From Iphinoe sp. HA4291-MV1 (GTDB lineage: Bacteria > Cyanobacteriota > Cyanobacteriia > Cyanobacteriales > Nostocaceae): DNA of 64,000 nucleotides. The notes beneath the pieces are model-generated. The model was not told the origin of the DNA and did no database searches. It saw nothing but the letters and a program-made list of their open reading frames with translations. Location of the stretch: NCBI GenBank assembly GCA_019359415.1, contig JAHHHH010000024.1, positions 1-64,000 of the forward strand, read 5' to 3'. Position numbers and translations under genes: made by a program. This document shows positions 35,973-61,396 of this stretch, in pieces. Positions within the stretch are counted from its first letter, which is position 1; each line of letters starts with the position of its first letter.

Positions 35973-36929
35973 ATGCACGCCCAGGCACGTAAAATAATCT
36001 CGTCCCTGGAAACACTACCCGATATATGGCGAATTATACCCACCTTCGGCAAACGCCCTCTAGGAGGAAAACAATGGCAACATAAAACTTATTCCCCCAA
36101 ACAGCTACAAGCCGAACTCATTCGTACTAGATGCAAAATTTGGTCGGGGAAAAGGTATATACACGCGACTGGTGTTGCTATTGTTTGCGGTAACTATGAT
36201 CCCCAAGGGCACATCGTTGCTATTGACTGCGACGGACCACGCGCTTGGGGTCAAATCCTGATCCTCAACAAAAAACTCGAAGAGGATGAAATGGAGAAAA
36301 TTTCTCCCCAAAAGTTATACGAAGGCGCACTCACTTACCTCCCGCCGACAGTCGCCTTTACCTCTGGAGGCGAATATAAGCGCCAGCTTCTCTACCTAAT
36401 CCCCGGAAACTCATCAATCACCTCCAGCAAAATCTCAAACCTAGAGTTCAGAGGCAAAAATCATGCCTCAGTTCTACCTCCTTCCTATCACCCAGAAGGA
36501 AGATACTACCAGTGGGTTTCCGGTTGCAGTCCTCAAGAAAAGCAAGTTGCGATCGCACCAGATTGGGTAATAGCCCAAATGTTATTAAAGCAGAAGAAAG
36601 AAAGGTTAATCAGCTTTCCACAAGAAAAATACAACCGCAGAGATAGGCGAGACAAATACATCAACTTATACCCAAACATCGAAACCAGTATCCAAGCTGC
36701 ACTCACATTCTTAGAAGTTATCCATCCCCGATTTGCTTCGGACTACACAAGCTGGATTCAAATTGGAATGGCACTCAAGTCAGTCAGCCCTATCTTACTC
36801 GACGCTTGGGACCGATGGAGTCAGCTGTCACCCAAATACAAACCAGGAGAGTGTGCCTACAAATGGCAGTCTTTCCGCAGAACGGGCATTACCATTCGTA
36901 CCCTCGTAAAATTTGCTAACCTTTCATGA
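35973..36929 (+). CDS. Primase-polymerase (archaeo-eukaryotic primase type) with PriCT-like tail
   Basis: A 318-residue protein. The N-terminal bifunctional primase/polymerase fold shows catalytic AIDCDGP (about residues 81-87), then TVAFTSGG and RQLLYLIP strands, and the third motif region EFRGKNHASVLPPSYHPEGR with YYQWV. The C-terminal about 75 residues (LEVIHPRFASDYTSWIQIGM ... AYKWQSF) match a PriCT-2-type domain. No helicase follows. It should lay primers, or short DNA, for plasmid replication. The stop overlaps the ATG of the next gene (ATGA at 36926), so it is translationally coupled to the PRTRC cassette. Confidence 0.85.
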   Translation: MHAQARKIISSLETLPDIWRIIPTFGKRPLGGKQWQHKTYSPKQLQAELIRTRCKIWSGKRYIHATGVAIVCGNYDPQGHIVAIDCDGPRAWGQILILNKKLEEDEMEKISPQKLYEGALTYLPPTVAFTSGGEYKRQLLYLIPGNSSITSSKISNLEFRGKNHASVLPPSYHPEGRYYQWVSGCSPQEKQVAIAPDWVIAQMLLKQKKERLISFPQEKYNRRDRRDKYINLYPNIETSIQAALTFLEVIHPRFASDYTSWIQIGMALKSVSPILLDAWDRWSQLSPKYKPGECAYKWQSFRRTGITIRTLVKFANLS

Positions 36930-37363
36930 ACAATCAAAACCAAGAAAGTATAACTAACTCCGAAGCTAGTTACAGTAGCGATTTTAATCCTAATAACAAT
37001 AATCACTTAGAAAGAGATGATGAAATTCATGAGCAAGGCGATAGTAATAACTGCCCAAACACCAAAACTTATCTAATAACCATCCAAATTCATCCAGAAG
37101 AAGAACAAGCTATCCTATCAATTGGTATCAGAAACGCACCACCCGTAATTAAAACTATCGACTATCAAGAAATAACTTCACAACCGGCCATCAAAGACTG
37201 CATCCGAGAGTTGGAAGAAATACTACCCAAAATCATAGAAACTGCTGAAAAGGCAATAAATACTACCAGTAATTCCACTCAAACAAGACAAGTACAACAG
37301 CGAGAATTACCCAAAGATTATCAAAAAGCCGAATCTAACAGAAAACAACTTTCACTTTTCTAA
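36926..37363 (+). CDS. PRTRC cassette protein (protein E-like) with C-terminal clamp motif
   Basis: A 145-residue protein. The first about 45 residues are low-complexity and polar. A compact part follows, strand-rich (YLITIQIHPEEEQAILSIGI), then a helix (CIRELEEILPKIIETAEKAI). The protein ends RKQLSLF, a perfect bacterial beta-clamp-binding pentapeptide (QLSLF). The same kind of tail closes the plasmid polymerase and delta-prime. It is coupled to the primase by an ATGA overlap and lies 6 bases before the ubiquitin-like gene. The PRTRC protein E label rests on position and size and is tentative; the clamp tail is plain in the sequence. Confidence 0.6.
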   Translation: MNNQNQESITNSEASYSSDFNPNNNNHLERDDEIHEQGDSNNCPNTKTYLITIQIHPEEEQAILSIGIRNAPPVIKTIDYQEITSQPAIKDCIRELEEILPKIIETAEKAINTTSNSTQTRQVQQRELPKDYQKAESNRKQLSLF

Positions 37364-37369
37364 ATAATT

Positions 37370-37792
37370 ATGAACTATATCGCTATTATCGAAGGACAGC
37401 AAGTACCTATCCCAGAGGAAACAGCAATCAGTGACGAAAAGCTAAAATTAGCAATCACCACCTATTTCCCAGAGTACGCCAATGCTGAAATTACCAGACA
37501 GATCTTAGGAGATACAACCGAAATAAGACTAATTAAACGCGCTGGAACTAAGGGCAACTGCATCACCGAACTCAAGTTAGCACCCGAACAAATTAACCCG
37601 GCATTTGAGTTAGCCTGGGATTTGAAACTTCTAGAAATAAAAAATCAACTAACCCTGGAAGTTTTGATTGATATGCAGGGAAACATAAACAAAACAATCA
37701 AAATAGGGGAAAGCTGGGAAACATACATCGACAAAGTTTTTAGCTCTCTCAGGCAACAACCTCCTGCACCCAGCAATTATCCCGTACTGTAG
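37370..37792 (+). CDS. Ubiquitin-like protein (PRTRC protein C type) with C-terminal extension
   Basis: A 140-residue protein. Residues 1-62 fit the PRTRC protein C/prokaryotic ubiquitin-like pattern: a first strand MNYIAIIEGQQVPIPEE, helix DEKLKLAITTYFPEYANAEI, then strand TEIRLIKRAGTKG ending at Gly62. As I recall the family, members are about 70 residues and end near this GTKG. Here a further 78 residues follow (helical AFELAWDLKLLEIKNQLTLE, Pro-rich end). The modifier may therefore need processing before conjugation, or the extension may be a fused partner. It is encoded among E2-, JAMM- and E1-like genes. Cytoplasmic. Confidence 0.65.
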   Translation: MNYIAIIEGQQVPIPEETAISDEKLKLAITTYFPEYANAEITRQILGDTTEIRLIKRAGTKGNCITELKLAPEQINPAFELAWDLKLLEIKNQLTLEVLIDMQGNINKTIKIGESWETYIDKVFSSLRQQPPAPSNYPVL

Positions 37793-37833
37793 TCAGGTAA
37801 TGTCGCTACTATATAGCGGCATATCTCAAAATC

Positions 37834-38556
37834 ATGATATCACTAGAACTATTTAAAATACCCATCACCTACAGAGAAACAATCATCTATCTGGAAAACC
37901 TATCTCAAAAAGCGAATTTACTCGGCTTATATCAAAAACTATTTCCAGAACAGTGGAGTGAATCAACAACACTCCTAAATAGAAAAACATATCCTAATTG
38001 CATATATTCAGACAGGGAAATTGAATTTCTTCAGCTAGTAAATTCCAACTTGTTTCCCATTGAATTTATTGATGAAATAGAAGCATACAAGGAGTATGAA
38101 AATCTTGTTATATTGCCACAAAGACTTGAATGGTGGAATGATAATTTTGAAGATTTAGAGATTAGCGAAAAGTTCTTACTTTCCGTTATGGGCAATGGAT
38201 ACAGCTTGAAAGATTGGCAAGAAGAATTTGGGTTTGAACCTAAGTGTCTAACAAATGACGAAGATATAGATTTACAAAAACTTGTGAAAATCTGTAACAA
38301 GTTAAAATCACCAATCAAATATTTAGTAACTAGCCTCATGATTCTCGACTACTCAACAGGGAATATTTGGTTAGATACAACCTACGAAACAGGTTATTGG
38401 TGGGAATGGAGTGAAGAAAATATTATTTTACTAGCAGAGCAATGGCAAGAAGCTATTATCATGCTAAAGCACTTTCAAGAGTTAACAGACTGGATAGAAG
38501 CATCAGTAACTAATAGAAAAAAACTTGTCAGAATCTGGAATCAAGCCGCCATATGA
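37834..38556 (+). CDS. PRTRC-cassette protein of unknown function (position of protein F)
   Basis: A 240-residue, acidic, Trp-rich, mostly helical protein (EWWNDNFEDLEISEKFL, YETGYWWEWSEENIILLAEQW). No motif recognised. Its stop overlaps the ATG of the E2-like gene (ATGA), so it belongs to the same operon. Assignment to any PRTRC subfamily is only positional. Confidence 0.55.
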   Translation: MISLELFKIPITYRETIIYLENLSQKANLLGLYQKLFPEQWSESTTLLNRKTYPNCIYSDREIEFLQLVNSNLFPIEFIDEIEAYKEYENLVILPQRLEWWNDNFEDLEISEKFLLSVMGNGYSLKDWQEEFGFEPKCLTNDEDIDLQKLVKICNKLKSPIKYLVTSLMILDYSTGNIWLDTTYETGYWWEWSEENIILLAEQWQEAIIMLKHFQELTDWIEASVTNRKKLVRIWNQAAI

Positions 38557-39242
38557 ATACAGAAGCCAACGCCCAACCCATATTATCAAACATTCCAACA
38601 CAGGAAATTTTAGGGTATCTAATCATTCTCAGAGGACAGTTTGTACTAGTAGAAAAAGAGGGTAATAAAACACAGCACAAGTTTCTATCACCCGAAGCAG
38701 TAGAAAAGGCATTTACAACTAAAACTGTAAGTTCTGGATGGCTATCTCCCAATATGCTGTGGTGGGAAAAAACACCCTCTGGAGAGGGTGTTATTCAATT
38801 TTACCCACCCCAAAAATATTCAGTCTCAATACAAACCTTAGAAGAAAACAAAACGATAACTATTCCTATGCCAGCATTTCTATTCGCTGGCTGCGACAGC
38901 AGCTACTACTTGTGGGCAATTAAAGGAAAAACCTTCAAGCAGGATTGTCAATTATACAAGGCACCCTTACCAAATATTTGGGATGACTCAAATAGAATTT
39001 GCTTTGGCAGAAATACTCCACCAGCTTGCAATCCAAACTCAATTAATAAAGCCTGGAAACTGTTCTGGAGCAGCCCTTTCAACCAAGACCTCAGCCAGAA
39101 CAAATCCAAATCACACCTCCACAATGTCTGCGACCTACTAATCAGCCTGCAAGGTACAAGATCCTTCCCAGCAAAGGAATTAGTAACTAGCAACTATCAA
39201 AGAATCAAAACTCCAAATGATATACCCAGATATATATTTTAA
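38553..39242 (+). CDS. E2-like PRTRC system protein B
   Basis: A 229-residue protein. The family pattern is present: SSGWLSPNMLWWEKTPSGEG, IPMPAFLFAGC, YKAPLPNIWDDSNRICFGRN and NKAWKLFWSSPFNQ. The PLPNI...ICFG box carries Cys150, which matches the active-site Cys proposed for this prokaryotic E2-like (Prok-E2_D) group. It would accept the ubiquitin-like protein from the E1 enzyme by thioester transfer and pass it to a target or to the JAMM protein's context. It overlaps both neighbours, in line with one operon. Confidence 0.8.
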   Translation: MNTEANAQPILSNIPTQEILGYLIILRGQFVLVEKEGNKTQHKFLSPEAVEKAFTTKTVSSGWLSPNMLWWEKTPSGEGVIQFYPPQKYSVSIQTLEENKTITIPMPAFLFAGCDSSYYLWAIKGKTFKQDCQLYKAPLPNIWDDSNRICFGRNTPPACNPNSINKAWKLFWSSPFNQDLSQNKSKSHLHNVCDLLISLQGTRSFPAKELVTSNYQRIKTPNDIPRYIF

Positions 39243-39243
39243 C

Positions 39244-39888
39244 ATGAATAACCCCTTCATCAGTTATAACTATGCCATCAGTCACAATCTTCCTCCCTAC
39301 AGCCAAAAGCTTCAGGAATACTGGCTTGCGGCTGATGGAGTATACGTGCGTGCGCACCGCTTAGAACTAGAAATCTGCCTGCAAATCGCTCATACTCAGG
39401 TACCAGGATTGACACAAATACAACCCTATTTCAAATTAAATGTACCGAAAGTGCCAGCAAGCATCATTGCAGACATTATCAATGCTGCACGGGTTAATCC
39501 CCATCAAGAAATCCTCTTTTACTTGGGGGTTGAGAATAACATTTGGTGGTATCACATTCCACTGCAAGAAGCATCCTCAACCCATGTGCGATGGGCAAAG
39601 CCCCGCCTTCGCCCTTTGGGCGACGCCAGAGGCGAACGCGCAGCGTGTCGCAGACAAGGGCGTTCGCTCTTAACTACAAACTTCAAATACAGCCAAGCAC
39701 TGGTTGAAGTACACAGCCACGGCTGTATGAAAGCAACCCCCTCATGCCAGGACAACCAAGAAGAGTCAGGAAAGTTCCGCATATTCGGAATTATCGGGAC
39801 AGTTAATACGACCCCCACCATATACACCCGCTTAGGGGCATACAACCACTTCTTTGAAATTGACCCCAATTTTATATTTGAGTCATGA
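39244..39888 (+). CDS. JAMM/JAB-domain PRTRC system protein A
   Basis: A 214-residue protein from ATG 39244. The metalloprotease motif is intact: HSH (His157, His159), then seven residues, then SCQD (Ser167, Asp170), giving HxH-x7-SxxD. Glu89 (HQEILFY) is a candidate for the upstream catalytic Glu. Residues about 118-142 (PRLRPLGDARGERAACRRQG) are encoded by an in-frame palindromic repeat just before the catalytic core. JAMM enzymes cut after the C-terminal Gly of ubiquitin-like proteins, so it may mature or remove the modifier. Its stop overlaps the E1 start. Confidence 0.82.
   Translation: MNNPFISYNYAISHNLPPYSQKLQEYWLAADGVYVRAHRLELEICLQIAHTQVPGLTQIQPYFKLNVPKVPASIIADIINAARVNPHQEILFYLGVENNIWWYHIPLQEASSTHVRWAKPRLRPLGDARGERAACRRQGRSLLTTNFKYSQALVEVHSHGCMKATPSCQDNQEESGKFRIFGIIGTVNTTPTIYTRLGAYNHFFEIDPNFIFES
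39598..39670. repeat. Palindromic repeat inserted in frame in the JAMM gene
   Basis: GC-rich, with nested inverted parts (CGCCCTTTGGGCG, GCCAGAGGC, AGCGTGTCGC). Its composition is unlike the AT-rich gene around it. It belongs to the dispersed repeats seen at 21040-21095 and 47100-47320. Confidence 0.75.
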
Positions 39889-40718
39889 TACAAATCAATA
39901 CAGAAATTTTCTTACCCGTTTTCCCCCATCCTCACCGCAAAGTAGACTTTCTCTTAGTGGGGGCTGGCGGCACAGGAGGATACCTCGCAGAAGATGTTTG
40001 CCGTCTCATACTACAGTTACAGCAAAACGAGAAAAAGGCTAATCTCACCATCATTGATGGAGATAGCGTCGAAACTAAAAATATTGCACGCCAAAATTAC
40101 CAACCATCAGAGATAAGTTTGCCCAAAGCACAGTGTTTAGCCACGAGATGTAGTGCCAAATATGGGCTAGAAGTCACAGCAATTTCAGATTGGTTCTCCC
40201 CCAACTATGTAGAAAAATACAGGTGGAATACCCTCACAGTTATCATCGGTTGCGTAGATAATGCCGCCGCTAGAACGCAAATTCACTCGTGTCTGGAATA
40301 TAGCAACAGCCGCGAGCAAGCTGATCTATTCTGGCTGGACTGCGGTAACACAAGCACTTCCGGACAAGTTCTATTGGGCAGTCTCACTAACTTCGATATT
40401 GTAAGCACCTCGGATAACGCAGACAATCCCTCTTTCTGGAAACATCTACCATCTCCAGCACTGGTGCATCCTGATCTGCTAATTCCAAAGGCTGAAGAAC
40501 TCAGCAACAATAAACTCTCATGTGCGGAACTTCAAATACTGAATTACCAAACTCTATTCATAAACCGCATGACATCAGCTATCGCATCTCAATACCTTCT
40601 AGAATTAACACTAGCAGGAAAAATAACCAAATTTGCTAGCTACTTCAATCTAATGACTATGTCCTGTCGCAGCATTCAAACCACAATTACAAACCTTGGG
40701 AAATATCATCTTGTCTAA
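39885..40718 (+). CDS. ThiF/E1-like activating enzyme of the PRTRC cassette
   Basis: A 277-residue Rossmann-fold protein. Nucleotide loop LLVGAGGTGGYL (about residues 23-34), then TIIDGDSVETKNIARQNY with the acidic and Arg/Asn residues that contact ATP, then IIGCVDNAAAR. WLDCGNTSTSG and LSCAEL provide candidate catalytic Cys. E1-like enzymes adenylate the C-terminal Gly of a ubiquitin-like protein and often form a thioester. It is the last gene of the cassette, followed by a terminator at 40747. Confidence 0.85.
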   Translation: MIQINTEIFLPVFPHPHRKVDFLLVGAGGTGGYLAEDVCRLILQLQQNEKKANLTIIDGDSVETKNIARQNYQPSEISLPKAQCLATRCSAKYGLEVTAISDWFSPNYVEKYRWNTLTVIIGCVDNAAARTQIHSCLEYSNSREQADLFWLDCGNTSTSGQVLLGSLTNFDIVSTSDNADNPSFWKHLPSPALVHPDLLIPKAEELSNNKLSCAELQILNYQTLFINRMTSAIASQYLLELTLAGKITKFASYFNLMTMSCRSIQTTITNLGKYHLV

Positions 40719-40746: not shown

Positions 40747-40779
40747 ATCTGTTCTGAAAAATACTCAGGACAGATTTTT
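40747..40779 (+). terminator. Intrinsic terminator after the PRTRC cassette
   Basis: ATCTGTTCTGA / TCAGGACAGAT, 11-bp stem with one G-T pair and a 7-base loop, then TTTTT. It closes the primase-to-ThiF operon. Confidence 0.85.
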
Positions 40780-45721: not shown

Positions 45722-47086
45722 ATGAAACTAACAACTACTCAATTTGTACTGACAGAACTCCTAGAAATAGCAAAAAACGGCATATCCACAAGACCAGTAG
45801 ACCCTATACTCGGAAGTTTGCTAATCGAAGCCTCGGATGAAGGTAGACTTACCGTCATTGGTACTGATCTGAATGTCAGTATCAAAACTACGGCAATAAC
45901 TAATATTCTACAGGCAGGTGTAGTCGCCTTAAACGCCAAACTACTAACCAACACGGTTAACAATCTAGGAAGCGGCGAACTGGATATTGAAGTAAGCGAA
46001 CACATTTGCGTTATCAGCCACAGTACGGGGAAATGTCGTATCGTAGGAGGAAATCCAGAAGATTTTCCAAGTATCTCAGAAACAGAAAACCCCACGGAAA
46101 TCAGTATCCCTAGCAAAAAGCTACAAGCTGCCTTAGAAGCTTGTCTGTATTGCAGTAGCACAGACGAAACCAAACTTATCCTCACAGGCGTACATTTTCA
46201 GTTACAAGGCGAAAATTGGAGTTGCGCTAGCACCGACGGACACCGCCTTGCGTTGGTATCCTCCAAGCTAGAGGGAAACTACTCGCCAATCTCATTCACA
46301 GTCCCTAGAAGAAGTCTCACCGAGTTGGCAAAGCTCCTCTCGACAACAACCGAAAATAGCAGTTGTACGCTCAAGGTTGGAAACAACACTATCCAGTTTA
46401 TCTTGCCAAATGCTGAACTCACATCCAGGTTGTTAGAAGGAGAATTTCCCCATATTAACCACCTTATTCCTAAAAGCTTTGCTAACGAACTCATAGTAGA
46501 ACGCAAAGGAATGGAAATAATTCTTAAAAGAATCAGCCATTTCGCAGAGAAAAAACACAAAATTGTCAAAATTCTATGGGAGGTAAATGACCAACAGGCA
46601 ACATTAATGACGGGTAATACTGATATTGGGGACGCGGTAGATTCTTTGCTTATCAAGACCAAAACCAGTATAGGAGAAAACATCGGTATTGGGCTAAATA
46701 GTGGCTATCTACAAGAAGCGCTCAAGCACATCTCAACTGATGAAATTATATTCAGATTTAACAAGCCCCTCCAACCAGTCATCATTTCTCCTCTAGGTGG
46801 ATTGCTTGACCAACTAACACTAATTATGCCCGTAGAAGTGCAAGATTTCGATAAACCAGAAGGTCTTACCAAACAGAAAACTGACACTTCAAAACCAGAA
46901 AATAAAACAGGAGCAGAAAATATTACTGGGGTGGATAAACTTCCAGAACTAGAAAAAGTATCCAATGAAACAACTAATGTCACAGACACACCGCCGTCTC
47001 ATACACCTACCGCTAACAAATCAAAATCCCGCAAGCGCAAGCAAGAACTAAAACCAGAACCAAAATTAGAAACAACAGCCGTATAG
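45722..47086 (+). CDS. dnaN: DNA polymerase III beta subunit (sliding clamp) with C-terminal tail
   Basis: A 454-residue protein. All three clamp domains are visible: domain 1 up to about 120 (RIVGGNPEDFPSI), domain 2 with ASTDGHRLALV, domain 3 from RLLEGEFPHINHLIPKSF to QPVIISPLGG and LTLIMPVEV near residue 379. That is where chromosomal cyanobacterial clamps end. A 75-residue charged, low-complexity tail follows (NKSKSRKRKQELKPEPK). The clamp encircles DNA and tethers polymerases carrying QLxLF motifs. Several window proteins carry such a motif, indicating a dedicated plasmid clamp. The start is ATG 45722. Confidence 0.93.
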   Translation: MKLTTTQFVLTELLEIAKNGISTRPVDPILGSLLIEASDEGRLTVIGTDLNVSIKTTAITNILQAGVVALNAKLLTNTVNNLGSGELDIEVSEHICVISHSTGKCRIVGGNPEDFPSISETENPTEISIPSKKLQAALEACLYCSSTDETKLILTGVHFQLQGENWSCASTDGHRLALVSSKLEGNYSPISFTVPRRSLTELAKLLSTTTENSSCTLKVGNNTIQFILPNAELTSRLLEGEFPHINHLIPKSFANELIVERKGMEIILKRISHFAEKKHKIVKILWEVNDQQATLMTGNTDIGDAVDSLLIKTKTSIGENIGIGLNSGYLQEALKHISTDEIIFRFNKPLQPVIISPLGGLLDQLTLIMPVEVQDFDKPEGLTKQKTDTSKPENKTGAENITGVDKLPELEKVSNETTNVTDTPPSHTPTANKSKSRKRKQELKPEPKLETTAV

Positions 47087-49735: not shown

Positions 49736-51823
49736 ATGAGTTATAACCATAGAAATTTTATTACCAAATTTAGTAATAAAATTATAGTTGATGAGGAAAA
49801 ACTTGACATATTCTGGGAAGATACCACTCCTATACTCCAGTGGCAACCTACAGTAAATATTTCGACCTACTCTAGTCTCAAAACTCTGGTAGTTGATATT
49901 GAAACAGCAGGAATCAACCCAAGAGAGAATCGCATCTATGCAATTGGCTGTATGAGTGAAATGGGGAAAGTCTCCATTTTTATGGATATCTCCGAAAGCA
50001 AAATCCTCATCTCGTTTCTCAAACACCTAGAAATAAGCAAACTAGACGTAATTTATACTTACAATGGAACTGAGTTTGACCTACCGTTTATTATCACCCG
50101 CTGCGAATTACATGGCATTGCTCATCCCTTTAGAATTGCATCTAGAACGCGCACTATCCGAACTGCCCAGGTACATGGTACATCACTAACTATCCGAGAA
50201 ATATTCATCCGAAACAGCACCGGACACTCCCCTCAAATCGGGAAACCCTTATGCCTATGTCCTGTGGACACGCTACGCGTTCACGAAGTGTGCCCGTTGG
50301 CGCAGCCTCTCCGACAGGAGAAGGGCTTACGGCACACCTATGTCCAGAGGACACGTTACGCGAACGGTGAACGTCAGAGCCTCAACGTCTCTTGCGCGTC
50401 TCCGACAGGAGAGGGAAAGCCGTCATTCGTACTGGACCCCTCACGCACCAGTTCCCCTGCTACAGCGCTGATTCACCACGGAGGTGTCCTCCAGCACGTA
50501 GATATCTATATCTGCGTTCTCAGATGGGATTTTGTCGCTAAGGAGCTAACCAACGGACGGTCACTCAAACAAGCCGTCCGAGAAATGGGATTGCGCTCTC
50601 AAGCTCGACTGGTTCTCCCCTATGAGGAAATTCTAGCTTGCTGGAAAGCTGGTTCCGGTAGTGAGGGATGGCAGAAAATTAAGGAGTATCTTACTTACGA
50701 CTTAGAAGATACCCGACTCATCGCCAATAGGCTAGTACCCTCATATTACTACGAAGCGCTAGTTGTACCGGGAATGAACCTCCAACAACTAGCCATCACG
50801 GGTAATGGCACTAAGTGGGAGAGAATTTTCGAGCATCACTACCAAGGGATAAAACCTAAACCCGACCGCAAGTACAAATTCCAAGGGGGAATAGCGTATT
50901 CTGTTCCAGGACTGTATAGGAAAGTTGGATACATAGACATTAGTTCAATGTATCCCAATGCCATACTGTCGAAAGGCATTGTCTCTTGTAAGGATACAAA
51001 TCGCATTGGGTTAAGCATCTTGCAATATCTGGTAAAAGAAAAATCAAGGCTGGAACAACTTGCTAAGACTGGAGATATTGTTGCCAAGGAAAAAAGAGAA
51101 TCCACCAAAGTCCTAGCTAATTCTCAGTTTGGGTTCTTTGGCACATCTGAACTTGCCTTTAATGATATGGAAGCAGCAGCCCTGGTAACAGCCTATGGTC
51201 GGCGTATCCTACAGTTTATGATTGAGGTAATCAATCAAGCTGGCGCAGTCCCTATAGAAGTTGATACCGATGGTGTATTCTTTACCCACCCTAATGTAGA
51301 AGAGGTGTACGCCATACTTCAATCTCAATTACCCAAAGGGATAATCGTCAAACTAGAATTTATTGCCGAAGCCATGTTTATTCCCGAAAGGGGAACTAAG
51401 AACTATCTCTTGTGGCTAAAAGATGGCAGGATTATCCGTAAAGGTAGTTGGAGAAGTCGTTCTCGCTCGAAGCTAGAAAAAGAATTTGCTGTTGAATATC
51501 TAACCCATTTCATTCAAAATCAGCTACGCGCAGAAGAACATTACAGAAATATCAAATCGCAGATTTCATCAAGAGACTACCCAAAAGAGAAACTCGCCAT
51601 CACTCGCAAAATTCGTGAAGGTGAAAAAGAACTTCTCAAACTAGGAAAACCTGGAGATATCGTCACCTACTATTACAGCATTCAAGGTGTAACAAATATC
51701 AAAAGTTCGCAGAACTATTCATCACAGTATTATCTCAATTTACTTGCCCAAAAACGACTAGAAATCTTGCAAATAGCAAACCCTCAAATGCTAGACAGTC
51801 GCAAACAATTGACCCTATTCTAA
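49736..51823 (+). CDS. Family B DNA polymerase with proofreading domain and clamp motif
   Basis: A 695-residue protein. Proofreading exonuclease: Exo I VVDIETAG (about 52), Exo II YNGTEFDLPF (about 108), Exo III YLTYDLEDTR (about 318). Polymerase: motif A YIDISSMYPNA (about 400), motif B KVLANSQFGFFG (about 457), motif C VDTDGVFF (about 508). All catalytic acids are present. Residues about 161-252 between Exo II and Exo III are encoded by GC-rich palindromic repeats inserted in frame. The protein ends SRKQLTLF, a beta-clamp-binding motif. Family B polymerases on plasmids are unusual in bacteria. Presumably this one copies the element. Confidence 0.92.
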   Translation: MSYNHRNFITKFSNKIIVDEEKLDIFWEDTTPILQWQPTVNISTYSSLKTLVVDIETAGINPRENRIYAIGCMSEMGKVSIFMDISESKILISFLKHLEISKLDVIYTYNGTEFDLPFIITRCELHGIAHPFRIASRTRTIRTAQVHGTSLTIREIFIRNSTGHSPQIGKPLCLCPVDTLRVHEVCPLAQPLRQEKGLRHTYVQRTRYANGERQSLNVSCASPTGEGKPSFVLDPSRTSSPATALIHHGGVLQHVDIYICVLRWDFVAKELTNGRSLKQAVREMGLRSQARLVLPYEEILACWKAGSGSEGWQKIKEYLTYDLEDTRLIANRLVPSYYYEALVVPGMNLQQLAITGNGTKWERIFEHHYQGIKPKPDRKYKFQGGIAYSVPGLYRKVGYIDISSMYPNAILSKGIVSCKDTNRIGLSILQYLVKEKSRLEQLAKTGDIVAKEKRESTKVLANSQFGFFGTSELAFNDMEAAALVTAYGRRILQFMIEVINQAGAVPIEVDTDGVFFTHPNVEEVYAILQSQLPKGIIVKLEFIAEAMFIPERGTKNYLLWLKDGRIIRKGSWRSRSRSKLEKEFAVEYLTHFIQNQLRAEEHYRNIKSQISSRDYPKEKLAITRKIREGEKELLKLGKPGDIVTYYYSIQGVTNIKSSQNYSSQYYLNLLAQKRLEILQIANPQMLDSRKQLTLF
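50215..50490. repeat. Nested palindromic repeats inside the polymerase gene
   Basis: Contains GTTGGCGCAGCCTCT-type repeat (about 50293), two CTATGTCC(T/A)G(T/A)GGACACG halves (50256 and 50338) and TCTCCGACAGGAGAGGGAAA (about 50399). They are related to the spacer at 47100-47320. The frame stays open through all of it. Confidence 0.85.
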
Positions 51824-55315: not shown

Positions 55316-56269
55316 ATGCCAGTAAAATTCATCTATGGGGAAGATAACCACTCAATTTCAAAAAGGGTAGAACAATTAATCAAATATTTTACTACCCAAG
55401 AGTGGGAAATATTCAACTACATCCGAGTTGATAACAAAACGTCAGCAATATCCCAAACAATAACAGAAGTGATGACAATTCCTTTCGGAGAAGGAGGAAA
55501 GATTGTCCACATCACAGACGGGACGATATTAAACAAATGCCCGGATGGAATAATTTTATCATTCAAAGAAAATCTTCCCAAAATACCCAAACGAAATCTA
55601 CTGTTAATTACCTCACAAAGTAAGCCTGATGACAGAAGTAAAGCCGTCAAAGAACTACTTCAACACGCTGAAATTGAAGAATTTCCCCTCATCTCTAGTT
55701 GGGATAAAGAAGGGATAGAAAAACTCATTCAAGCTGCAGTAAAAACCCACTTCTTAGAGCTTGCTCCCACCGCCATAAGCTATCTAGTAGAGGCAATTGG
55801 AAACAATACTGCAAGGCTCGATAGCGAACTCGCCAAGCTTGCTATCTACGCCCAAGGGGAAAAAGTAGATATTGAGGATATCTCACACTTAGTTAGCAAC
55901 AACAATACTAGTTGTACTGGACTTGCCCACGCCATCAAAAATAGTAAAGCTAATACAGCAGCACAAATACTTTATCGCCTGCTAGACAATAACGAACACG
56001 CTCTCAAGATAGTCGCTACTCTCATAAGTTACTTCCGCACTTGGCTAATTACCAAAGCTGGGGTAGAAGAAAAACTACCCGACAACAAAATCTTAACACT
56101 CGCCGAACTCAACAATCCCAAAAGGCTGTACTTCCTCAAAAAAGAAGTTGAAACTGTAAGCGCCCTCAAACTTAAACAAACCCTCATAGCACTAATCCAA
56201 CTTGAAAGCGAACTCAAGTCTGGCATTGACAACTTTACCTCCACCATCATTCAAATCTGTACTTTATGA
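55316..56269 (+). CDS. holA: DNA polymerase III delta subunit
   Basis: A 317-residue protein. KFIYGEDNHSISKRVEQLI is the delta N-terminal pattern; NLLLITSQSKPDDR and YLVEAIGNNTARLDSELAKL are typical of the HolA family, as is the C-terminal helical collar domain. Delta opens the clamp ring. The start is ATG 55316. It overlaps the delta-prime start by an ATGA. Confidence 0.85.
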   Translation: MPVKFIYGEDNHSISKRVEQLIKYFTTQEWEIFNYIRVDNKTSAISQTITEVMTIPFGEGGKIVHITDGTILNKCPDGIILSFKENLPKIPKRNLLLITSQSKPDDRSKAVKELLQHAEIEEFPLISSWDKEGIEKLIQAAVKTHFLELAPTAISYLVEAIGNNTARLDSELAKLAIYAQGEKVDIEDISHLVSNNNTSCTGLAHAIKNSKANTAAQILYRLLDNNEHALKIVATLISYFRTWLITKAGVEEKLPDNKILTLAELNNPKRLYFLKKEVETVSALKLKQTLIALIQLESELKSGIDNFTSTIIQICTL

Positions 56270-57180
56270 ACAACCTCTTTAACGAGATAGTCGCCCAGCA
56301 TACCGCAAAACTTATCTTAAATAGCGCGATTGGGCAAGCGAGCGTGCCAAAGGCAATCGCCTCACAGAGTCAGCTCCTCCGAACCATCGCAAGCGGTAAA
56401 ATTGCCTCTGCCTACTTATTTACCAGCACCATCGAAGGGGTAGGTAAAACCAAAACCGCCCTCTTATTTGCCTCCTACATCTGTAGCACCACAGACATGC
56501 TGAAAGTACACCCGCAAGAGGAAAATTCCACTATCGGAGTAGAACAGGTACGGGAAATCATCACCTTTGTTTCAACTTCTCCCATTGAAAGCAATCACAA
56601 AGTAGTAATTATCCACGACTGCGACACCATTACACCCACCGCCGCCAACGCCCTACTCAAAACTTTAGAGGAACCAGGAAAAGGAATATTTATTCTTATC
56701 ACATCCCAAGCCCAGAATATACTGCCTACCATCAAAAGTAGGTGTCAAATCATACCATTTGCTCAGTTAGCTATTGACGAAGTAAAAACTATTCTGGAAA
56801 ATCAGAAAATCTTCTTACGCCAAGACATACTCAAACTTTGTTCGGGCAGTCCTGGTCGCGCGATCGCATTTCAGAATTTGTTAAATTCTATACCTGAAAG
56901 CATACTTGACCACACTAACGTTTATCTTTATTGCAGTCATACTACCCTTATCAAACACCAACCATTCCCAAATTATAATTATGACAAACTGTGGGAAAGT
57001 ATTGGTAGCAGCCCTATCGATTACAAACAAATCCAGTATGCTTATGAAAGCATCGCCACCGATATCCGCACTCGTGTCATCAAAAGCGCAAGCAATGAAT
57101 GGGGTAAAAAGCTTAAGCAAAAACCCTTAGAAAATAATCAATCTACAGAGCTAAATAATTCACAATTATCACTGTTTTAA
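56266..57180 (+). CDS. holB: DNA polymerase III delta-prime subunit with clamp motif
   Basis: A 304-residue protein. Clamp-loader AAA+ fold: GKIASAYLFTSTIEGVGKTK (a modified Walker A), KVVIIHDCDTITPTAANALL, KTLEEPGKGIFILITS and IKSRCQIIPF. The gene includes GC-rich loop codons at 56326-56360 (GCGATTGGGC...GGCAATCGC), an extra GQASVPKAIA. It ends NNSQLSLF, a beta-clamp-binding tail unusual for delta-prime. It overlaps holA, forming an operon, and is followed by a terminator. Confidence 0.87.
   Translation: MNNLFNEIVAQHTAKLILNSAIGQASVPKAIASQSQLLRTIASGKIASAYLFTSTIEGVGKTKTALLFASYICSTTDMLKVHPQEENSTIGVEQVREIITFVSTSPIESNHKVVIIHDCDTITPTAANALLKTLEEPGKGIFILITSQAQNILPTIKSRCQIIPFAQLAIDEVKTILENQKIFLRQDILKLCSGSPGRAIAFQNLLNSIPESILDHTNVYLYCSHTTLIKHQPFPNYNYDKLWESIGSSPIDYKQIQYAYESIATDIRTRVIKSASNEWGKKLKQKPLENNQSTELNNSQLSLF
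56326..56360. repeat. Small palindromic repeat in holB
   Basis: GCGATTGGGCAAGCGAGCGT ... GCCAAAGGCAATCGC. The ends GCGATTG and CAATCGC are inverted. It is read in frame as AIGQASVPKAIA. Confidence 0.6.
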
Positions 57181-60403: not shown

Positions 60404-61396
60404 ATGACCACCAAGAAAGTCGAACTCAAAGAATATGACAAAAATGCACTCGATGATTTATTGGGTAGTAGTGCAAGCCAAGAAGAATCAACCAAGAAAA
60501 ACACTACTACCCTACCAATAGATTCAATCATCCTCCCTGCATCCCAACCAAGACGCTACTTTGATACCGAAGCACTACAATCACTGGCAAACGATATCAA
60601 AGAAAATGGACTTCTTGCACCGATCGCAGTCAGATATACATCAGGCAACACTTACGAACTCATGGCTGGCGAACGCCGCCTCCGTGCTTGCAAGATTGCA
60701 GGATGTGAAGAAATACCTGTCAATATCATTGACTGCGATGACAAAACAGCCACCCGCATCCGCATCGCAGAGAACCTACAAAGGGAAGACCTCAACGCCT
60801 ATGAAGAAACTATCGGCATTCTTGAACTACTCGCTCTGGAGCTAGATATTAACCAAGATACGGTAGTCTCACTACTATATGAGATGAATAATGAAACGAA
60901 AGGAAATTCTAACCATAATGTTATGGTTAGCTCCGAAGCCGTGACTGTACAAGACATTTTTTCCAAGTTAAGCAAAATCACCTGGCAATCATTTGTAGCT
61001 AACCGCTTACCTATACTCAAACTACCTGGTGACATTCAGTCAGTACTGGCGAAAGGTGAACTGGAGTACACTAAAGCAACAACAATTTCCAAAATCAAGA
61101 ATTTAGAGCAACGACAAGAGGTATTAAAACAGGCAATTGAGGAAAAACTATCTTTATCACAGATAAAAAAGATAGTAGGGAATATCCTAGAAGCTAGCAA
61201 ACAAGAGAAACAAGAAACGCCTACAAGAGAATTAGCAACACGAGTCGGAAAAATATCATCACTGATAAGGAAAGACAAAACTCTGAATGAAGATAAAAAA
61301 AGATTGAATAAAGTTAATAAACTAATAGAACAGCTTATAGAATTGCTTAAACTTCCAGAAGAGATAGAAACAGCAGAAGAAACTCTAGAAAACTGA
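60404..61396 (+). CDS. parB: ParB-type partition protein
   Basis: A 330-residue protein. SIILPASQPRRYFD, the ParB box ELMAGERRLRACKIAG and AENLQREDLNAYEETIGILE are the CTP-binding/nuclease-like N-terminal motifs. A helix-turn-helix region and a helical C-terminal dimer part (KRLNKVNKLIEQLIELLKLP) follow. A 22-bp inverted repeat occurs within it (60909-60930), possibly a parS-like site. It is the ParB member of the cassette name PRTRC; it lies 20 kb from the ThiF gene. Confidence 0.9.
   Translation: MTTKKVELKEYDKNALDDLLGSSASQEESTKKNTTTLPIDSIILPASQPRRYFDTEALQSLANDIKENGLLAPIAVRYTSGNTYELMAGERRLRACKIAGCEEIPVNIIDCDDKTATRIRIAENLQREDLNAYEETIGILELLALELDINQDTVVSLLYEMNNETKGNSNHNVMVSSEAVTVQDIFSKLSKITWQSFVANRLPILKLPGDIQSVLAKGELEYTKATTISKIKNLEQRQEVLKQAIEEKLSLSQIKKIVGNILEASKQEKQETPTRELATRVGKISSLIRKDKTLNEDKKRLNKVNKLIEQLIELLKLPEEIETAEETLEN
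60909..60930. repeat. 22-bp inverted repeat inside parB
   Basis: CTAACCATAA-TG-TTATGGTTAG: perfect 10-bp arms and a 2-bp spacer. It encodes SNHNVMVS. A possible centromere-like site. Confidence 0.45.

Follow-up and report, generated by a model that had tools for sequence, protein, structure and literature searches.

What a complete ubiquitin-like conjugation cassette does on a bacterial plasmid, and to what its activity is directed, is the question raised by a locus of the cyanobacterium Iphinoe sp. HA4291-MV1. The locus lies within positions 1-64000 of contig 38 of a genome assembly of 7.36 Mb in 140 contigs, and this whole stretch of 64,000 nucleotides is called the window below. The cassette consists of six genes, P0002 to P0007, which encode a small protein at the E position, a ubiquitin-like fusion protein, a protein at the F position, an E2-like conjugating enzyme, a JAMM protease and a ThiF/E1-like enzyme (Table 1). 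All of these open reading frames were present where the original prediction had placed them. A large plasmid backbone with type IV secretion genes, replication genes, ParA and ParB surrounds the cassette, as found by profile searches of the window proteins. Judging from sequence comparisons, we consider it slightly more probable than the contrary that these genes form a complete cascade for conjugating a ubiquitin-like protein and that this cascade is recruited to the sliding clamp. Cassettes of this kind have been known since 2006; what is unexpected here is a conserved tail of P0002 that is predicted to dock on the clamp. A rule was also found that relates the JAMM gene to the end of the ubiquitin-like protein.

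The predicted clamp-binding tail of P0002

P0002 ends in QLSLF, which matches the consensus beta-clamp-binding motif. This consensus is given as QL[S/D]LF, and more broadly as QxxLF, in the available excerpt of PMC12309361, and as Q-aliphatic-x-[L/M][F/L] in that of PMC11139829. To follow the tail across loci, the E gene was defined by position only, as the longest open reading frame of at least 50 residues that ends just before the ubiquitin-like domain. Such a frame was found in 79 of the 83 cyanobacterial loci with the ubiquitin-like gene on the plus strand; the loci without it are L026, L156, L191 and L193, and L025 has its ubiquitin-like gene on the other strand. The 79 loci correspond to 76 distinct E proteins; one plasmid is represented twice, as L002 and L128, and some loci may repeat named genomes. 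In this main set, the pattern Q..(LF/FF/LL/IF) was present within the last 10 residues of the E-position frame at every locus (79/79), as QLSLF in 32, QISLF in 18, QLTLF in 14, QMALL or QMTLL in 6 and eight other variants in 9.

Identity between P0002 and eleven divergent relatives is low, at 12-47%, and Q141 and L144 are invariant in the 12 aligned sequences. The tail was kept in every cluster drawn at 90, 70 and 50% identity (45/45, 25/25 and 15/15, respectively), and shuffling of the last 40 residues gave an expectation of 0.07 of 15 clusters where 15 were seen. With the 13 loci in which the motif was first noticed set aside, the strict pattern Q[LIM].L[FL] was found at 65 of the other 66, which include L128, the plasmid already represented by L002. 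As a control, the loose motif was sought in 1,363 other unique open reading frames of the same loci; 36 had it, of which 11 were recognised as plasmid DNA polymerase. Within the window, the frames of at least 60 residues that carry the motif are P0002, the family-B DNA polymerase, the clamp-loader subunit delta' and a spurious frame that lies within the E2 gene. The plasmid polymerase ends in the motif in all 12 relatives of at least 450 residues among the loci examined. The tail of delta' is not general, since the Calothrix delta' ends otherwise. P0002 matched no Pfam or NCBIfam family above cut-off.

The likely partner of this tail is the plasmid's own DnaN, which matches PDB clamps as well as its family model and has about 80 extra C-terminal residues. 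DnaN was found on 13 of the 15 cyanobacterial E2-bearing plasmids checked (14 cyanobacterial plasmids among the first 22 records fetched, plus Chondrocystis) and on none of the three E2-free cyanobacterial plasmids that had not been chosen for DnaN. All 12 plasmids with DnaN and a known E protein have a tail ending in Q..LF with at most 4 residues following; no E protein was found on the Stanieria plasmid (W21). The two cassette plasmids without DnaN, those of Pseudanabaena galeata (tail QMALL) and Chondrocystis (no motif), are also the ones with odd tails. Outside cyanobacteria, DnaN was present on one of the seven plasmids obtained from a ThiF search (W11-W17) and absent from a Chloroflexota record (W08); three further plasmids, picked as genera or records common to both searches, all carried it.

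The tail of P0002 suggests that tagging happens at the replication machinery. The original prediction had proposed that conjugation may regulate this machinery, and the proposal gains support from the tail together with the co-occurring plasmid clamp. The argument then offered for it, linkage to the upstream primase, is weaker because the primase adjoins the E gene in only 34 of the 79 cyanobacterial loci and, of the 56 plasmid records with the primase, 16 recur in the list of 40 (of 42) records with E2. Coupling to the primase is limited to a lineage; at the other loci examined, genes other than primase precede the cassette, and primase coupling was rejected as the main functional link.

Some further clamp-related features were seen. 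A second DnaN, presumably chromosomal, lies on contig 34 of the same genome (85606-85932) and would be an alternative partner for P0002. On plasmids of Virgibacillus (L017, 2971-7840) and Planococcus (L195, 8488-13131), dnaN lies two small genes upstream of the E2-JAMM-E1 genes, and QTDIF occurs close to the N terminus of the JAMM protein from Virgibacillus. On IMG/VR contigs, a clamp-like QL[AMT]LF occurs within the first dozen residues of proteins upstream of the ubiquitin-like gene (L063, L066, L067 and L068) and likewise in proteins downstream of ThiF at L039 and L040.

The ubiquitin-like protein, the JAMM rule and the enzymes

The identification of P0003 as a ubiquitin-like protein was borne out indirectly, by a profile comparison in which its residues 1-62 aligned with PRTRC_C over the full length (97.2% probability and E 3.5e-11 in hhalign); three PRTRC_C proteins in turn match Pfam Prok_Ub with E-values of 4e-18 to 6e-26. 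When the window proteins were searched with the four families originally suggested, the E2, JAMM and E1 proteins matched Prok-E2_D, Prok-JAB and ThiF, and P0003 had no match to Prok_Ub or to any other Pfam or NCBIfam family. Eight of 40 aligned relatives match TIGR03738, and P0003 itself does not. Among these 40 sequences K61 is invariant, and G59 and G62 are each conserved in at least 90%.

P0003 is a fusion, in which the 62 residues ending in GTKG are followed by 78 more. The same holds for most cyanobacterial ubiquitin-like open reading frames (n=84): 69 are fused or at least 120 residues long, 13 are followed by a gene resembling the second part, and for the other 2 the script found no such gene. 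Where the two parts are separate genes, the ubiquitin-like protein ends in GSKG at the stop codon, or in GSKG, GTKG or GPKG plus two residues.

Residues beyond the glycine were always accompanied by a JAMM gene. In 149 loci with ubiquitin-like, E2 and E1 genes, the JAMM gene was present at 117 of 117 where residues follow the glycine, and was lacking at 22 of 32 where the protein ends at the glycine. In cyanobacteria alone, it was present at 75 of 75 loci with residues after the glycine against 0 of 3 loci ending there, all three of them Planktothrix. The ubiquitin-like protein of Planktothrix agardhii ends in GSKG at the stop codon and no JAMM match was found across the whole 119,566-base record; Oscillatoria/Microcoleus-type loci, with GSKG plus two residues, have the JAMM gene. 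Two loci outside the table, L004 (JAMM and E1 elsewhere on the plasmid) and L202, fit the rule as well. In cassettes of IncP-2 Pseudomonas, Vibrio and Alteromonas, the ubiquitin-like protein ends in glycine and no gene is annotated between E2 and E1, as far as the locus annotation goes. Since JAMM was always present where residues follow the glycine and was mostly absent where the protein ends there, the JAMM protein probably processes the ubiquitin-like protein, cutting off its tail and exposing Gly62.

These counts were drawn from 193 loci (L001-L193), of which 32, including 16 of the 100 cyanobacterial ones, had no ubiquitin-like gene by profile and stand outside the counts. The remaining 161 loci gave 150 rows, and L013 was dropped for want of a parsable tail. 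L004, L023-L026, L028 (the present genome), L032, L033, L074, L084 and L158 were left out because E2 or E1 was not placed as the script required, because of prior exclusion (L028) or because of the other strand. L095 was counted as JAMM-bearing by motif only. At the Stanieria locus L021, E2 and E1 are present; the stretch examined yielded no ubiquitin-like gene, and the plasmid had no match to JAMM.

The three enzymes agree with their predicted identities. P0005 matched Prok-E2_D at 7e-39, and all 14 aligned sequences have the proposed catalytic Cys150. P0006 has the expected HxH-x7-SxxD signature as HSH-x7-SCQD and matched Prok-JAB at 9.3e-6; E98, H166, H168, S176 and D179 (numbering of the 223-residue frame) are likewise invariant in 14 of 14 sequences. 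P0007 matched ThiF in Pfam (4.7e-15) and PRTRC_ThiF in NCBIfam (7e-41), and its C213, in an S-C motif, is invariant in 20 of 20 E1 proteins from cyanobacteria to Bacillota. Another cysteine of P0007, C153 in LDCGN, was rejected as catalytic because several of these aligned E1 proteins have other residues there. PDB searches found relatives of E1 and gave no meaningful match with the E2 and ubiquitin-like profiles.

The JAMM gene has an insert in two genomes. In the window, this is a repeat of 81 bp that has 47 matches in the genome (itself included) and leaves the reading frame open; it occupies a variable part of the gene, just ahead of the active-site HxH, and is missing there from the other 13 aligned sequences. 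In Brasilonema plasmid pBOCT1 (L001, 10148-12343), the gene is interrupted by about 2.2 kb, at the end of which lies the signature of a group II intron (Rfam RF00029, L001 12274-12351).

Possible targets of conjugation

A pathway of four steps can be proposed for the cassette. P0006 would cut P0003 after Gly62 to give a 62-residue ubiquitin-like protein with C-terminal Lys-Gly, a step for which the comparative rule is strong. P0007 would activate Gly62 with ATP and hand it over, probably via Cys213, to Cys150 of P0005, as is expected of these families. P0002 would dock on the beta clamp through its QLSLF, either as an adaptor that places the conjugation machinery at the replisome or as the carrier of the tag. 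Finally, and speculatively, the clamp or a clamp-bound replication protein would be tagged, with a change in clamp occupancy and plasmid replication. Reversal of the tagging may be a further role of the JAMM protein, and P0004 and the released 78-residue domain may be accessory subunits.

In eukaryotes, modification of PCNA by ubiquitin or SUMO places a ubiquitin-like tag at the sliding clamp. With less than even confidence, we suggest that the cassette is a bacterial counterpart of PCNA ubiquitination, in which the E2, tethered by P0002 to the beta clamp, would tag the clamp or the clamp-bound polymerase with the JAMM-released modifier and so control plasmid replication. This would be a functional parallel, and we do not claim that the recruiting parts are homologous. 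If true, bacteria would have a clamp-directed conjugation that resembles one of the most familiar roles of ubiquitin in eukaryotes. A search of titles and abstract beginnings, subscription papers and preprints being outside it, found no report of a ubiquitin-like/E2/JAB system tied to a sliding clamp.

Several observations weigh against direction of the cascade to the clamp. The motif is a signal of five residues, and a match to the consensus can bind weakly, as in Bacillus subtilis DnaE according to the available excerpts of PMC12309361 / PMC11139829. The same pattern, sought in the last 12 residues, was found in 3 of 71 non-cyanobacterial cassettes, and an IncP-2 Pseudomonas plasmid has PRTRC genes and DnaN and no such tail. 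The cyanobacterial control for DnaN is small, as it consists of three plasmids only. In IMG/VR, a looser LF tail was found in 3 of 6 loci with DnaN and 1 of 59 without (p 0.0018), in a post hoc test on 65 fragmentary loci with an E-position frame, one DnaN match being below the family cut-off; the first 50 records gave 3/3 versus 1/37, and the other 30 gave no tail in three DnaN records. By hhalign, P0002 versus PRTRC_E and P0004 versus PRTRC_F have a probability of 0.1% each, and position alone agrees. Calothrix sp. NIES-4105 plasmid1 (L197) has the replisome gene string without the cassette, which is therefore not needed for that replisome. The JAMM rule, when tested on a tree, gave 4 supported pairs, with a mean of 2.5 agreeing and 0 contrary, and the sign test was not significant; close relatives share history, and the agreement rests on few independent events.

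The protein at the E position of Chondrocystis sp. NIES-4102 plasmid1 (L202, 116000-130000) also stands on this side. The plasmid has a full cassette, with a ubiquitin-like protein of GTKG and a long tail, F, E2, JAMM and E1, and the E-position frame of 110 residues overlaps the ubiquitin-like gene. The protein ends in SSGLI without a clamp motif, and no DnaN match was found on the plasmid. The tail is therefore not indispensable. This exception weakens the word invariant, but it falls on a plasmid without DnaN.

It is possible, though unlikely, that P0002 is itself the clamp occupant, in competition with polymerases for the pocket of a clamp that may be the plasmid's or the host's. The enzymes would then act on P0002 and not on the clamp, and conjugation would load or remove a copy-number brake or an antagonist of host replication. 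That the motif is C-terminal and follows a variable stretch, as would be expected of a free docking peptide, and that Pseudanabaena keeps its QMALL tail without a plasmid DnaN would both fit such a role. However, the plasmid clamp is favoured as the partner of P0002 because DnaN is on the same plasmid in 13/15 cases and the motifless cassette lacks it.

A quite unlikely alternative is that the cassette tags unrelated targets such as partition, conjugation or host proteins, and that the tail only couples the timing or location of tagging to replication. PRTRC cassettes elsewhere adjoin PRTRC ParB, the plasmid bears type IV secretion and ParA/ParB genes, and most non-cyanobacterial cassettes and one cyanobacterial cassette lack the tail. 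In the lineage of the window, however, the cassette sits within the replisome gene string, with the primase to one side and DnaN to the other, and parB does not adjoin it.

By analogy with the Bil and CBASS conjugation systems, a defence against phages or plasmids might be considered, and we regard it as improbable. The E1 protein weakly matches PADLOC E1-E2 models (best 1.8e-7), P0003 matches the PADLOC family labelled Type III-C specific (1.3e-19), and the cassette of Anabaena cylindrica pANACY.02 (L018, 1-6178) borders Cmr/Csx11 CRISPR genes. On the other hand, no PADLOC model gave a match to E2, JAMM or P0002 with an E-value of 1 or less, and the near neighbours of the cassette in the window are replication and transfer genes. 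The Type III-C label was set aside as evidence of a CRISPR function; it may simply reflect the neighbourhood in A. cylindrica. Least credible, and very doubtful, is a role of the E1/ubiquitin-like pair in ThiF/ThiS-like sulphur transfer or small-molecule adenylation without protein conjugation: E1 matches the ThiF and MoeB families and ubiquitin-like proteins of operon type 6d were threaded on ThiS (available part of PMC1779556), but the cassette has a dedicated E2 with an invariant Cys, JAMM is always found when the ubiquitin-like protein has a tail, and no thiamine or molybdopterin genes were among the window proteins scanned or read.

Relation to known cassettes and plasmid setting

The preferred reading, of a conjugation cascade brought to the clamp, concerns a cassette whose kind can be named. 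By its sequence, it is a divergent cyanobacterial member of operon type 6d (Iyer et al. 2006), annotated elsewhere as PRTRC. The available part of PMC1779556 describes for type 6d a ubiquitin-like protein with a highly conserved C-terminal Gly, an alpha-helical protein with conserved charged residues, an E2-like protein with a conserved Cys, a JAB protein and an E1-like protein in one operon, and the window cassette has the same ubiquitin-like, E2-like, JAB and E1-like components in one operon. A P0002-like gene, the clamp motif and the ubiquitin-like fusion, all three found in the window cassette, are not mentioned in that part of the source. It calls a His downstream of the E2 Cys absolutely conserved, whereas P0005 has Asp there (FNQD); in the aligned cyanobacterial set this position is His, Asp or Glu, others have FNxH, and no His is invariant. 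The type 6d E1-like protein is described in the same text as lacking a rhodanese domain, and P0007 agrees, with ThiF as its sole Pfam match over 277 residues. The JAB protein of type 6d carries an amino-terminal JAB-N in this description. P0006 scored 25.9 bits with Prok-JAB (cut-off 25); its match to DUF2016 (0.044) falls below the cut-off of that family, and the JAMM relative of pMOL28 matches DUF2016 at 2.6e-30. DUF2016 is presumably JAB-N. The type 6d listing, as available in PMC1779556, includes Anabaena variabilis. Plasmid C of Trichormus variabilis ATCC 29413 carries a cassette (L003) whose E2 is 56% identical to P0005. We take this strain to be that Anabaena variabilis by assumed synonymy, and the locus meant by the authors may differ.

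The assignment to PRTRC in the original prediction was right as to kind, though not by the thresholds of NCBI. The gene order E-C-F-B-A-ThiF is that of PRTRC in Cupriavidus pMOL28, and C, B, A and ThiF are homologous. Against the NCBIfam and Pfam reference families (TIGR03734-03738; Prok_Ub, Prok-E2_D, alpha-hel2, PRTRC_E and Prok-JAB), the scores for PRTRC_B (59.1/131.45 bits), PRTRC_A (45.9/101.8) and PRTRC_ThiF (140.1/144.75) all indicate homology and fall below NCBI's own cut-offs, and P0003 (C), P0002 (E) and P0004 (F) had no PRTRC match in NCBIfam. P0004 keeps its place and is conserved among relatives, with no profile homology to PRTRC_F. No PRTRC ParB was found beside the cassette, and the window ParB was under the NCBIfam cut-off. 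The window cassette thus shares order and four homologous components with PRTRC, and differs from it in the scores of B, A, ThiF and ParB, in E and F proteins that are unrelated by profile, and in the clamp tail and the ubiquitin-like fusion. For this cassette kind, described in 2006, no function was found in the part of the literature searched, which did not extend to subscription papers and preprints.

The Bil system offers another comparison. According to the available part of PMC11354881, BilC, a JAB protein, exposes the reactive C-terminal Gly of BilA, so that processing of a ubiquitin-like protein by a JAB partner, as proposed here, is not new in principle. Both BilABCD and the cassette comprise a ubiquitin-like protein, E1, E2 and JAB. 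BilA has two ubiquitin-like domains and BilD two adenylation domains (inactive and active) and a Cys domain in that source, whereas the cassette E1 is a single 277-residue ThiF protein and its modifier is one 62-residue domain with an unrelated C-terminal extension.

Cassettes of this type are uncommon, since E2 profile matches were found in 10 of 386 evenly drawn cyanobacterial genomes, including the present one and one (G385) with internal stops. A tblastn search gave 42 annotated plasmid records with E2, and 39 of the 40 listed are cyanobacterial; among the matches listed, the E2 closest to P0005 is that of Brasilonema octagenarum pBOCT1 (91%). That Chondrocystis, outside the 40 listed, was found by profile suggests that tblastn misses some E2-bearing plasmids. 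The string on Calothrix plasmid1 has the same order of primase, P0009 homologue, DnaN, ATPase, polymerase (ending QLSLF), delta and delta'. Searches of its 14-kb stretch with the cassette profiles, of which that for E is weak, gave no match, and no E2 match was found on the whole plasmid. The cassette, probably together with P0002, is an optional module in the replisome string. The Calothrix plasmid may be noted as a natural empty site between primase and DnaN.

Replisome genes in the window are those for primase-polymerase (Prim-Pol 7e-23 and PriCT_2 2e-22 in Pfam), DnaN, DnaX, family-B DNA polymerase and the clamp-loader subunits delta and delta', and a protein resembling single-stranded DNA-binding protein was recognised by eye. 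The overlap of the primase with the first cassette gene by ATGA was confirmed. Of the ATGA overlaps claimed within the cassette, P0004/P0005 and P0006/P0007 are present, and the other genes are separated by 6, 41 and 1 nucleotides. The start of P0006 was set at 39244 because it agrees with relatives. A single terminator had been described; the terminator-like site after the E1 gene is there, a second lies inside the E2 gene, and the count of 6 sites versus 4.8 expected from shuffles makes this weak.

Table 1. Features of the cassette and of related genes in the window
Feature	Position	Strand	Basis or remark
Primase-polymerase (Prim-Pol + PriCT_2)	35973..36929	+	Pfam; upstream of cassette, outside it
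P0002, 145 residues, E-position protein, first cassette gene	36926..37363	+	ATGA overlap with primase
QLSLF, predicted C-terminal beta-clamp-binding motif of P0002, residues 141-145	37346..37360	+	Consensus match
P0003, 140 residues, ubiquitin-like protein fused to 78-residue C-terminal domain	37370..37792	+
Ubiquitin-like domain, P0003 residues 1-62, end G59-T-K61-G62	37370..37555	+	hhalign to PRTRC_C
C-terminal 78-residue domain of P0003	37556..37789	+	Separate gene in Planktothrix, Oscillatoria, Pseudanabaena
P0004, 240 residues, F-position protein	37834..38556	+	Position and conservation
P0005, 229 residues, E2-like conjugating enzyme (Prok-E2_D)	38553..39242	+	Cys150 codon 39000-39002
P0006, JAMM/JAB protease, 214 residues from likely start	39244..39888	+	Open reading frame listed from 39217; JAMM motif 39712-39753
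Dispersed repeat, in frame within JAMM gene, just upstream of active-site motif	39590..39670	+	Matches in own genome
P0007, 277 residues, ThiF/E1-like enzyme	39885..40718	+	Invariant Cys213 codon 40521-40523
Terminator-like hairpin after E1 gene	40747..40775	+
Plasmid beta sliding clamp (DnaN), likely P0002 docking partner	45722..47086	+	TIGR00663 3.8e-72
QLTLF, C-terminal clamp-binding motif of family-B DNA polymerase (49736-51823)	51806..51820	+	Internal positive control
QLSLF at C terminus of clamp-loader delta' (56266-57180)	57163..57177	+
ParB	60404-61396		PRTRC ParB 81.6 of 278.6 bits, aligned over generic ParB part only

The plasmid family-B polymerase has 695 residues, compared with 601-610 in relatives. 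It likely carries an insert of roughly 90 residues, because its tblastn alignments to the closest records are broken into two or three parts.

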